From an uncultured Mesonia sp. (GTDB lineage: Bacteria; Bacteroidota; Bacteroidia; Flavobacteriales; Flavobacteriaceae): a stretch of DNA of 64,000 nt. The first letter of the stretch is position 1. Each line of letters begins with the position of its first letter. The notes under the pieces were generated by a model. That model was not told the DNA's origin, made no database searches, and worked only from the letters and a program-made list of their open reading frames with translations. Shown in pieces: positions 20,179-43,250 of this stretch. The position numbers and the translations under genes are program-made. The stretch spans positions 372,001 to 436,000 of the forward strand of contig CANMOY010000001.1 in NCBI GenBank assembly GCA_947499595.1, given 5' to 3'.

Positions 20179-21291
20179 TTATGTTAAATTGAGTGAGAAT
20201 AAACCACTTGTACCGCTTAAGTATTTCAATTCATCACCTACTTTAAGTAACTTTCCATTCAAAACACTTAAGTCGAGCTGTTTAGCGCAAATATACCTTA
20301 GACCTTTTCTGCTTAATTTTGATCCTATTTCGGCTATAATAGGTATAAAATGAATCTCCCCCTCCGTTAAACGTTCCTCGTACTGAATACCTATTTGACA
20401 AATTTTTGATTCTTGTTCTATGTTTTCAATAATCAAATCATAAAATTGTTTTTCATTTTCAGGAATAGTAAGGTAGTTTTTCTCTGTAAATTTCTTGTAA
20501 GCATGGCTATTTATTAAATCTAAGCCTCTCCATAAAGCTTTAAAGACAAATTGGCGCGTTTGTTCACGTTCATAATCATCAGGAAAATGTCCTGCTTCAA
20601 ATAATATAGTAGAAATTCCCCTATTCATTAAAGTATCTCCTATACAATTTAGGTTAAAGGTGTCATCGTAGCGACCAATACCACCAGGTAAATCTTCACT
20701 TAATTCTTTGTATATGCCTGCTATAATTTGCATAGCCTTTAAACGCTGAGAATTCATCTCTCTAGCTTCATTGAATGCAGGTGCCAAAAAAGATAAAGTA
20801 GCTGGTTTATTAAATCCTTTTGTACCAAAAATAGTTCTTTGGTCATGTAAATTAAAACAAAAGTCAGGTGCATAATTGATGTATACATTCTTTAGAATTT
20901 GACTTTCTACTTGAGTTAAGTTCTGGGCATCTCTATTAAGATCTACCTGATTTGCATTTTGCCGGGTATAGGCTTTCAAACCATCGGGATTTAACACAGG
21001 AATAATCAAAATATTCAAGTTCTCAAAAGATGCTGAAAATGTTACTTTTCTTAATTTTTCAAATAGATCAAAAACAGCTTTTGTGGTCGTACTTTCATTT
21101 CCATGCATTTGCGACCACATCAATACCTTGGTTGGACCATTTCCAAGTTCAACTTGGTAGATTTTCTCATTTTTTTCAGAATGCCCTATAACCGATACCT
21201 TAAAATCTGTAGGTAAGTTTTGAAGGTATCTACTTAAATTGGTATAGGATAAATAACGCCCTTTTATTTTATTGTAATGTTTTAGGCTCAT
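20179..21291 (-). CDS. M14 family zinc carboxypeptidase
   Basis: 370 residues. The zinc-binding H-x-x-E is H-G-N-E in W-S-Q-M-H-G-N-E-S, the third zinc ligand lies in F-N-L-H-D-Q-R, and a candidate catalytic Glu is in L-F-E-A-G-H-F-P-D-D. No signal peptide is seen, so it appears cytoplasmic, perhaps acting on peptides or peptidoglycan fragments (inference). It is divergent from an XRE regulator; the intergenic region carries five palindromic operator copies, three of them before this gene, with its likely -7 box inside the nearest. Confidence 0.88.
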   Translation of the reverse strand: MSLKHYNKIKGRYLSYTNLSRYLQNLPTDFKVSVIGHSEKNEKIYQVELGNGPTKVLMWSQMHGNESTTTKAVFDLFEKLRKVTFSASFENLNILIIPVLNPDGLKAYTRQNANQVDLNRDAQNLTQVESQILKNVYINYAPDFCFNLHDQRTIFGTKGFNKPATLSFLAPAFNEAREMNSQRLKAMQIIAGIYKELSEDLPGGIGRYDDTFNLNCIGDTLMNRGISTILFEAGHFPDDYEREQTRQFVFKALWRGLDLINSHAYKKFTEKNYLTIPENEKQFYDLIIENIEQESKICQIGIQYEERLTEGEIHFIPIIAEIGSKLSRKGLRYICAKQLDLSVLNGKLLKVGDELKYLSGTSGLFSLNLT

Positions 21292-21310
21292 TTTGAAATT
21301 GCTTTTTTAT

Positions 21311-21328
21311 TGTTTACAAAAGTAAACA
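21311..21328. promoter_or_regulatory. operator 1 of the XRE/M14 array (perfect palindrome)
   Basis: TGTTTAC-AAAA-GTAAACA, perfect 7-bp arms, 20 bp before the M14 start codon. On the minus strand it contains TACTTTTG (21317-21324), a -7 promoter box for the peptidase gene. A bound repressor would therefore cover the promoter. Confidence 0.75.
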
Positions 21329-21334
21329 TTCTTT

Positions 21335-21352
21335 TATTTACATTTGTGAACG
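21335..21352. promoter_or_regulatory. operator 2 of the XRE/M14 array
   Basis: TATTTAC-ATTT-GTGAACG, an imperfect copy of TGTTTAC-N4-GTAAACA, centred 24 bp from operator 1. Confidence 0.6.
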
Positions 21353-21368
21353 GGGATAAATTTTAAAA

Positions 21369-21386
21369 ATGTTACAAATGTAAATC
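21369..21386. promoter_or_regulatory. operator 3 of the XRE/M14 array
   Basis: ATGTTAC-AAAT-GTAAATC, an imperfect copy centred 34 bp from operator 2. On the minus strand it also contains a TAnnTTTG-type box (21375-21382). Confidence 0.6.
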
Positions 21387-21525
21387 TATTCTGCTATTGG
21401 TTTCTTAGTTGATTGGAAAGTATCCTAATGAATATTTTTTATTTATTAATTGTTTGGTTTTGAGTTTTTTAATTGTGTTAGGTTAAAGTTTTAGTTTAAT
21501 TTATATTGAGTTATTACGTTTAGGG

Positions 21526-21557
21526 TTTGATAGTATTGTATTTATTTATTACATTTG
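21526..21557 (+). promoter_or_regulatory. promoter of the XRE regulator
   Basis: TTTG at 21526-21529, a 20-nt spacer, then TACATTTG at 21550-21557. This is the Bacteroidota -33/-7 arrangement. The -7 box lies within operator 4, pointing to autoregulation. Confidence 0.7.
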
Positions 21558-21563
21558 TAAACA
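21546..21563. promoter_or_regulatory. operator 4 of the XRE/M14 array
   Basis: TTATTAC-ATTT-GTAAACA; the right half-site is perfect. It overlaps the -7 box of the XRE promoter. Confidence 0.65.
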
Positions 21564-21580
21564 ATCAATTTTAAGTATAT

Positions 21581-21598
21581 TGTTTACAATGGTGAACG
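21581..21598. promoter_or_regulatory. operator 5, over the XRE start codon
   Basis: TGTTTAC-AATG-GTGAACG; the left half-site is perfect. It is centred 35 bp from operator 4 and covers the ATG at 21589. Confidence 0.65.
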
Positions 21599-22008
21599 CG
21601 GAAAAGTTTACAAAACGACTCGATAAAATTTTAGAATATTACGACTTATCGGCCGCTGCCTTTGCCGAAGAAATTCAAGTAGGTCGTTCTTCCATATCTC
21701 ATATTTTATCTGGCCGTAACAAACCTAGTTTAGAATTTGTATTAAAAGTAATCAATCGGTTTCCCGAAGTGAATCTGTATTGGCTGCTTAACGGAAAAGG
21801 AAATTTTCCAAGTAGTAAAGAATCAGATCCTTCCACTCCCCCAACTTTAGAACAAAAAAATATTCCTGAATTATTCCAAACGAAACAAAATTCAGAAGCA
21901 GCAAAAGGGTCAGAATTGAATACCTCTGAAAGCTTTCTAAAAAACAAATCCATCAGTCGGATTGTTATCTTTTATAAAGATGGAACTTTCGAAAGTTTTA
22001 CTAATTAA
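21589..22008 (+). CDS. XRE-family helix-turn-helix regulator
   Basis: 139 residues from the ATG at 21589 (a TTG at 21580 is possible but lies in operator 5). Residues about 8-65 form a Cro/C1-type HTH: D-L-S-A-A-A-F-A-E-E-I-Q-V then G-R-S-S-I-S-H-I-L-S-G-R-N-K-P-S. A Ser/Pro/Gln-rich linker leads to a conserved-looking C-terminal strand pair R-I-V-I-F-Y-K-D-G-T-F-E-S-F. Two operator copies flank its start and three lie before the divergent M14 gene, so it probably represses both (inference). Confidence 0.85.
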   Translation: MVNAEKFTKRLDKILEYYDLSAAAFAEEIQVGRSSISHILSGRNKPSLEFVLKVINRFPEVNLYWLLNGKGNFPSSKESDPSTPPTLEQKNIPELFQTKQNSEAAKGSELNTSESFLKNKSISRIVIFYKDGTFESFTN

Positions 22009-22048: not shown

Positions 22049-22420
22049 ATGAAAAATACACTTCTTTTACTGATATTTTTAGCTATGGTTTCTTGCTACA
22101 GCCCTAGTCGTAATTGCACCGATTTTAAAACGGGTAGTTTTGAGTTTGAAACCTATCTTAATGGAGAGTTGGTTAAAACCCGATTTGTGCGCAATGACAG
22201 TATTGAAATTGATTATTTTAAAAATGAAATAGATAGTAGTAGTATAAGATGGATCAATGATTGTGAGTACATACTTAAAAATTTGAATCCGAAAAATATG
22301 GCTGAAGAAAAGCCATTACATATGAAAATACTTACCACCAAAGGCAATACCTATACCTTTGAATATTCGATTGTAGGAGAAACCAAAAAGCAAAAAGGAA
22401 CTGTTATTAAAGTAGATTAA
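22049..22420 (+). CDS. small lipoprotein of unknown function
   Basis: 123 residues with a lipoprotein signal peptide: K-N then a hydrophobic stretch ending A-M-V-S-C, cysteine at residue 16. The mature part contains two further Cys (in R-N-C-T-D-F and N-D-C-E-Y) and reads as a compact beta-rich domain, resembling small Bacteroidota lipoproteins near DNA topoisomerase genes, but I do not recognise a named family. It lies 40 bp after the XRE gene on the same strand and may be co-transcribed. Confidence 0.75.
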   Translation: MKNTLLLLIFLAMVSCYSPSRNCTDFKTGSFEFETYLNGELVKTRFVRNDSIEIDYFKNEIDSSSIRWINDCEYILKNLNPKNMAEEKPLHMKILTTKGNTYTFEYSIVGETKKQKGTVIKVD

Positions 22421-43015: not shown

Positions 43016-43250
43016 ACGTGTTACTTTAGTTATAAGCCATCAGAAGAAAGCTTATTTTGATTATTAAGTTATTTTAGTTGTAAGTAACAGTATGCTATAG
43101 GCAGATATTATTGGTTTTTACTTGTGTAAATATATAAAAGAATTTTAATCCCACCCATAAAAGTTAATCTTTTTAACACTTTTTGAATGGAGTGCTTGCT
43201 TTTTTTCTCGTTTAGGTTTAATTAACTTTGACCCTTTATTCAAATACTGC
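43016..43250. other. sigma factor - uvrA divergent intergenic region
   Basis: 235 bp between divergent start codons. Apart from the -7 box of uvrA, no hairpin, palindrome or small ORF with coding character was seen. Confidence 0.5.
43223..43230 (+). promoter_or_regulatory. -7 promoter box of uvrA
   Basis: TAACTTTG, an exact TAnnTTTG match, 20 bp before the ATG at 43251. A TTG at 43196 is a possible but slightly distant -33 element (24-nt gap). Confidence 0.6.

Follow-up and report, generated by a model that had tools for sequence, protein, structure and literature searches.

In the window (the whole 64-kb stretch of DNA that was analysed, from a genome of 2.72 Mb), a gene for an XRE-type regulator and a gene for an M14 zinc carboxypeptidase diverge from a gap of 297 bp (21292-21588), the extent that a sequence-only reading had assigned to it. 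This gap and the first codons of the XRE gene hold five related sites in two clusters, and the locus raises the question of which protein binds them, what this does to the two promoters and whether the distant clusters act together.

Genes and sites of the divergent region

The features of the locus are as follows.

20179-21291, minus strand: M14 zinc carboxypeptidase gene, 370 aa (PF00246; Foldseek fold)
21311-21328, no strand: site 1, 22.8 bits, containing the M14 -7 box
21317-21324, minus strand: M14 -7 box TACTTTTG, inside site 1
21335-21352, no strand: site 2, 24 bp from site 1, over the M14 -33 region
21369-21386, no strand: site 3, core match, 14.8 bits, 34 bp from site 2
21387-21545, no strand: spacer between the clusters, about 80% AT, weakly conserved
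21415-21425, no strand: GGA-N5-TCC box in the spacer, equal to the Flavobacteriaceae SOS (LexA-like) box motif
21526-21529, plus strand: XRE -33 element TTTG, 20 nt upstream of the -7 box
21546-21563, no strand: site 4, containing the XRE -7 box
21550-21557, plus strand: XRE -7 box TACATTTG, inside site 4
21581-21598, no strand: site 5, covering the XRE start codon (ATG at 21589)
21589-22008, plus strand: XRE gene, 139 aa, putative repressor (HTH_19 and HTH_3 matches), with a CI-type HTH, a disordered linker and a conserved C-terminal beta-hairpin
22049-22420, plus strand: small lipoprotein-like gene (named by eye)

The XRE protein matched PF12844 (33.3 bits; cut-off 30.2) and PF01381 (33 bits; cut-off 23), resembled phage repressor families (best PHROG E 2.7e-12) and had one match in its own genome at E 0.001. 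In the AlphaFold monomer model, helices extend up to residue 68, residues 81-120 have a pLDDT of about 46-56, and strands 124-128 and 134-138 (pLDDT about 90) form a C-terminal hairpin, which is conserved among relatives and is a candidate for a bridging contact between repressors. The 50 best Foldseek matches of XRE covered 52-78 alignment columns of its 139 residues, which is the size of an HTH domain. C.AhdI, C.BclI, SinR and the 434 repressor share the HTH fold with XRE (TMt about 0.7-0.86 for most chains), although their overall likeness to it is weak (best E 0.004 of any chain). XRE contains no PF00717 (S24) domain, the single S24 match of its genome lying elsewhere (C8:12445), and no known looping domain was found in it. 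Three other assignments were rejected, namely a HigA antitoxin (TIGR02607; 22.5 bits, under the cut-off of 47.7), a toxin-antitoxin pair, the neighbours of XRE being M14 and the lipoprotein-like gene, and a defence system, the similarity of XRE to the PADLOC models HTH_VI, RmrA and PDC-M64B being weak (E 1e-4 to 5e-3). PADLOC gave no match for M14 or the lipoprotein-like gene. The M14 protein matched PF00246 (E 1.1e-10) and has a carboxypeptidase fold according to Foldseek; its score against MpaA (26.6 bits) was under the cut-off of 157. The lipoprotein-like gene, without a Pfam or NCBIfam match, follows XRE after 40 bp, and the two therefore probably form one operon. With tblastn, it was matched in 53 of the 63 loci of the second set described below.

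All five sites were found at the positions read from the sequence beforehand, including site 5 over the XRE start codon (21581-21598, with ATG at 21589). The pattern TGTTTAC-N4-GTAAACA, proposed for all of them, fitted them with 0, 3, 5, 2 and 2 mismatches (sites 1-5), so that it describes four of the five at up to three mismatches, site 3 (ATGTTACAAATGTAAATC) having five and retaining just the core TTAC-N4-GTAA. Site 1 had been called a perfect palindrome, which holds for its arms and not for its AAAA centre. At up to three mismatches the 64-kb window contained 12 matches, where 6.7 are expected on average by chance, and 4 of 100 shuffles reached 12; the 18-bp pattern alone is thus weak evidence. 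Four of these 12 matches are concentrated in 288 bp. Elsewhere in the window, a lone weaker palindrome (TTTTTACTTGTGTAAATA; 43115-43132; 10.7 bits) is located between two divergent ORFs.

Distribution of the array among relatives

Matches to XRE were retrieved from 51 of 60 genomes (E 0.001) and from 358 of 397 genomes of the same family (E 1e-15), the own genome being counted in both cases. A first set of 185 loci, sampled from the better-scoring part of the matches, was assembled in four rounds (30, 20, 26 and 109 loci), the 26 representing the better-scoring part of the family-wide matches listed; one matching genome (G055) and four entries with a match starting at residue 2 were left out. 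A divergent M14 gene was present in 172 of these 185 loci and in all 63 loci of the second set. Among the 13 loci without it, five lay less than 400 bp from a contig end, two (L064 and L111) had 552 bp and 900 bp of upstream sequence, respectively, and six from other families (L055, L056, L058, L059, L061 and L065) had no M14 in about 3 kb upstream.

In an alignment of 15 members of the genus, the five sites were the main conserved islands, with few weaker ones besides. A motif matrix trained on 72 sites from these 15 loci found 827 sites of at least 6 bits in the 169 non-training loci, compared with 28.9 in Markov shuffles, so that the array exceeds chance; the density of sites in these loci was 13.95 per kb, versus 0.11 per kb in M14-side sequence. 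The consensus of the 18-bp operators is TGTTTACA-WW-TGTAAACA. At least two sites of at least 10 bits occurred in 171 of the 172 XRE/M14 loci (156 of 157 outside the training genus), the sole exception, L060, having one strong site; the sequence-only reading had named absence of the motif before orthologous XRE/M14 pairs as grounds for its refutation, and it passes this test, the motif being present there. The layout is conserved too, with a 24-bp pair of sites on the M14 side in 153 of 184 loci (31 loci being without it) and a gap of 34 or 35 bp between sites 2 and 3 in 111 of the 138 loci for which site 3 was called. Among the distant homologues from other families, L055 and L061 had no site of 10 bits, and L056, L058, L059, L064 and L065, for which M14 was not found, had one or two sites of at least 10 bits. 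In four of the latter (L056, L058, L064 and L065), the XRE homologue is located upstream of a pyrD-like gene (by eye) and has two sites that are 191-202 bp apart, so that the layout with two clusters may predate the partnership with M14.

The counterpart of this comparison is provided by 27 genomes without XRE in the first searches, a sample that excluded G051 (0.3 Mb) and 19 further such genomes of the family. M14 was found in 13 of them. A profile search gave an XRE-like match in eight, seven of which were counted as XRE, the match in G018 being discounted because it lies beside an S24 domain in the same 263-aa frame. In G176 and G102, the XRE gene found by profile lies beside M14 and the sites are present. 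Furthermore, G132 was not counted as lacking XRE because its contig ends after 261 bp, with the sites present, and G234 was kept outside the count, its M14 gene itself being cut. Nine genomes had M14, no XRE match by protein or profile search, and more than 1.4 kb of upstream sequence. None of these nine loci had two or more sites of at least 10 bits within 500 bp of M14, one (G189) having a single site of 11.8 bits. Fisher's test of 171/172 versus 0/9 gave a P of 2e-14, which is too small a value because the loci are related. In G189, G145, G088, G221 and G188, M14 directly faces the lipoprotein-like gene (by eye), as if XRE had been excised, the gap between the two genes measuring 52-236 bp in five XRE-less genomes; the loss of the sites is not fully independent evidence, since one deletion may remove gene and operators together. 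Across the genomes compared, the array goes with XRE and not with M14 alone.

Within the own genome, the two best matches of the motif model both lie at the XRE/M14 locus (150 of 3470 candidates scored). A global regulon was rejected, as the own-genome pattern and model matches examined comprised no second array and, at 10 bits or more, single sites only. The best of these single sites (19.7 bits; L043/L299, G000:C4:48883) precedes a sugar-phosphate-mutase-like gene (by eye), which is present in 27 of 31 genomes. This gene was rejected as a conserved target, a site being found in three of the 25 loci scanned (G000, G005 and G012). In G012, a genome about 90% complete, the lone site is kept and XRE and M14 are both undetected.

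These distributions bear on the identity of the binding protein. A repressor other than XRE, for instance of the BlaI/CopY type, could be considered, given that the motif resembles TACANNTGTA, the core of the CopR-CopY operator (PMC7253601). This is highly unlikely, as the array accompanies XRE rather than M14 alone, sites precede XRE homologues for which no M14 was found (L056, L058, L059, L065 and L064), the XRE start codon is built into a site, and the XRE locus holds the best matches of the own genome. XRE is thus the probable binder of the sites and a putative repressor.

Promoter boxes and cluster spacing

In flavobacteria, the -7 promoter box TAnnTTTG spans positions -12 to -5 (PMC9723704), which would place the transcription start of M14 near 21312 and that of XRE near 21562. 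The boxes noticed beforehand inside the operators were indeed found there, that of M14 within site 1 (21317-21324, minus strand) and that of XRE within site 4 (21550-21557), with TTTG exactly 20 nt before the latter (21526-21529). The XRE promoter of the window fits the Bacteroidetes sigma-A pattern (-7 TAnnTTTG and -33 TTG about 20 nt upstream), and a TTG at a spacer of 19 or 20 was present in 58 of 127 loci. Among relatives, a TAnnTTTG within site 1 faced M14 in 145 and XRE in one of 153 loci, and one within site 4 faced XRE in 127 and M14 in three of 140 loci. Sites 2 (27 loci facing XRE and 47 facing M14, out of 153) and 3 (20 and 11, respectively, out of 138) are without the orientation bias seen for sites 1 and 4. 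In addition, site 5 had AATG as its centre in 134 of 153 loci, and a site was centred at most 2 bp from the place of site 5 in the window in 147 of 172 loci. Relative to the expected M14 start, the two members of the 24-bp pair have their centres near -7.5 (site 1) and -31.5 (site 2), so that the pair spans both promoter elements. As to the M14 mRNA, a leaderless form is hinted at in members of the genus, the extrapolated starts being uncertain.

Together, the conservation of the array and the orientation of the boxes support the earlier proposal of a self-limiting XRE repressor that would also control M14. An XRE protein bound to site 1 would cover the -7 box of M14 and one bound to site 2 its -33 region; on the other side, binding to site 4 would cover the -7 box of XRE itself, and occupation of site 5, over its own start codon, would be a further block. 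Alternatively, XRE might act as a two-way switch that represses itself and activates M14. The M14 promoter has no -33 box at the usual spacing, as no TTG occurred at a spacer of 17-22 from its -7 box in any of the 145 loci, a TTG being found at spacer 16 in 102 and at spacer 26 in 64 of them, derived from site 2, and the plasmid regulator RcoLS20 has several roles, activation among them (PMC4207663). Activation is disfavoured by the position of the operators: the M14 -7 box falls directly within site 1 in 145 of 153 loci and the -33 region is covered by site 2, so that both sites, when occupied, should exclude the polymerase; a two-way switch is the least probable of the readings considered.

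The M14-side and XRE-side clusters are separated by about 180 bp. Their distance was defined by two sites, the one closest to XRE and site 2 of whichever 24-bp pair scored better, and was measurable in 153 of the 184 scored loci (L029, at a contig end, having been dropped before). The values gathered near 237, 247, 258 and 268 bp, at intervals of about one helical turn, with 13 loci at 233-241 (mean 237.1), 83 at 242-252 (mean 247.4), 45 at 253-263 (mean 258.5), 6 at 264-274 (mean 267.5) and 6 elsewhere, and the weighted slope across the classes was 10.6 bp. The troughs at 240-243, 250-256 and 261-267, whose limits were set post hoc with the counts already seen, contained 1, 2 and 3 loci, respectively (6 of 153). 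The Rayleigh R of the 149 loci in the range 225-285 was 0.71 (best period 11.2), compared with a maximum of 0.27 in 2000 blurred copies; similarly, the 66 loci outside the main peak had an R of 0.70 at period 11, the 99.9% point of the null being 0.37. In six loci (L074, L075, L081, L103, L106 and L186), the proximal pair is shifted upstream by about one turn (-45 and -10; usual positions -34 and +1), and the distance to site 2 stays in phase (257-258).

The second set started from 80 loci, from which 16 that were identical around the start to loci of the first set, as well as L290, the contig of which ends 64 bp upstream, were dropped; of the resulting 63 loci, with exact duplicates removed and close relatives retained, 54 were measurable. 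Their R was 0.68, and 49 of the 54 fell within 2.5 bp of 247.5 + 11n, five being out of phase. The expectation was 29.5, because the band spans 6 of every 11 positions, and P was 9e-9 if the loci are taken as independent. The sequence between the clusters is hardly conserved, with an identity of 40% between loci of the same length versus 33% after shuffling. A static bend of the spacer is not claimed, as the A-tract power, raised at 10.5 bp (1.23 versus 0.83 +- 0.06), was non-specific, being raised at 9.5 and 11.5 too. Because the cluster spacing occurs in whole helical turns in a spacer of weakly conserved sequence, a DNA loop is proposed; the helical phasing between the clusters suggests that both must lie on matching faces of the helix.

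Without a loop, the two clusters would be independent and XRE would repress each promoter locally, the quantised distance being a relic of a few ancestral lengths or of an indel process of about 11 bp. Local occlusion alone accounts for the boxes inside sites 1 and 4, related loci have common ancestry, and the distance intended as a negative control (site 1 to the M14 start) was not flat but periodic as well (R 0.33; 99.9% point of the null 0.25). A relic of this kind fits poorly with the changes of phase class, at least 32 of which were counted on a quick tree for 150 loci, a figure that tree error inflates, and with closest relatives, whose distances are nearly equal or else about 11, 23 or 33 bp apart, intermediate values being rare. 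When 75 disjoint closest pairs were compared (median tree distance 0.6), the two loci differed by 0-3 bp in 59 pairs and by 8-13 bp in 11, the remaining pairs differing by 23 bp (two), 33 bp, 5 bp and 57 bp (one each). Moreover, the troughs are almost empty in both sets of loci, while the spacer sequence itself is hardly conserved. Local repression without a loop is therefore regarded as unlikely.

Accounting for the sites, the boxes and the phasing at once, XRE is probably an autorepressor that blocks both divergent promoters and bridges the two clusters by a phased DNA loop. In this mechanism, XRE molecules bound to the M14-side cluster would contact those at the other cluster across about 180 bp, perhaps via the C-terminal hairpin. 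With sites 1 and 2 as well as 4 and 5 occupied and the loop closed, both promoters would be shut together, so that one protein could control the M14 promoter and that of the XRE-lipoprotein operon jointly and cooperatively.

Related switches and an SOS-box motif in the spacer

The earlier statement that no system of this form has been described is too strong, since lambda CI and RcoLS20 of plasmid pLS20 work similarly. Lambda CI combines a CI-type HTH domain with a multi-site operator cluster, long-range cooperativity and autoregulation, and carries an S24 C-terminal domain. XRE shares the CI-type HTH and the multi-site cluster with it, and long-range cooperativity and autoregulation are proposed for XRE as well; unlike CI, it has a linker and a hairpin instead of an S24 domain. 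Lambda CI acts as an octamer with a loop of 2.3 kb (PMC4207663). In the case of RcoLS20, one regulator serves divergent promoters through two multi-site operators and a loop, and an addition of 5 bp to the spacer abolishes regulation (PMC4207663). The XRE/M14 locus likewise has two multi-site operator clusters at divergent promoters, as in switches of the RcoLS20 and lambda type. RcoLS20 controls conjugation genes of a plasmid, has a 75-bp spacer with a static bend and was found to be a tetramer by ultracentrifugation (PMC4207663), whereas the XRE/M14 locus is chromosomal and family-wide, with a spacer of about 180 bp and a loop that is proposed from natural spacing; the case for its dependence on helical phase is a comparative one. 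The kind of system, an autorepressing CI-like regulator with a loop, is thus already known. New are its chromosomal, family-wide occurrence, the operators that enclose promoter boxes and a start codon, and the phase signature in natural sequences. The top-ranked titles and the beginnings of abstracts in the open-access literature contained no description of the XRE/M14 locus.

A second regulator may be involved in part of the family. GGA-N5-TCC, the SOS motif assigned to Flavobacteriaceae (PMC8565304), was found in the spacer of 30 of the 172 loci, against 0.8 expected, with 26 of these 30 boxes centred at -167 to -170, and was absent from 142. As it occurs in 14 of the 15 loci of the genus, the box is, by its distribution, a clade trait. 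The non-canonical LexA proteins of Bacteroidetes share the CI-type HTH with XRE; they are S24 peptidases that bind GGA-N5-TCC or CTAA-N5-TTAG, and one diverged member binds TTAC-N5-GTAA (PMC8565304), whereas XRE has no S24 domain and is associated with an array of TTTAC-N4-GTAAA sites. The main text of that study never uses the word carboxypeptidase (PMC8565304). A candidate SOS regulator of the own genome is a 253-aa HTH protein with an S24 domain (L217; G000:C8), which is separated from a divergent ORF by a region with two GGA-N5-TCC boxes. The presence of such a regulator was rejected as an explanation of the box in the spacer, because 54 of 60 genomes have S24, irrespective of the box. The box suggests SOS control of the locus, which is a lead only, because the presence of S24 does not track it. 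A bolder, rather doubtful extension is that a domesticated phage-type repressor has served as a lambda-like loop switch since the ancestor of the Flavobacteriaceae, with insertions of one, two or three whole turns surviving and those of half turns being purged, and that in the Mesonia-like clade, with an SOS box in the loop, DNA damage and the repressor would jointly control M14.

Regulatory DNA loops have been demonstrated conclusively in remarkably few systems (PMC4207663). The locus offers a signature by which a loop may be recognised from sequence alone, namely a site spacing in helical turns while the spacer drifts, and hence an approach for finding regulatory loops by comparative genomics. 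It also provides a candidate for a chromosomal loop in a phylum with little-studied promoters and repressors, as well as a proposed operator for a repressor family that is present in 358 of 397 genomes of the family and is linked to a peptidase and a lipoprotein-like protein. If the proposed loop is real, the natural variation of this family would amount to a test of helix phasing in a regulatory loop that nature has already carried out.
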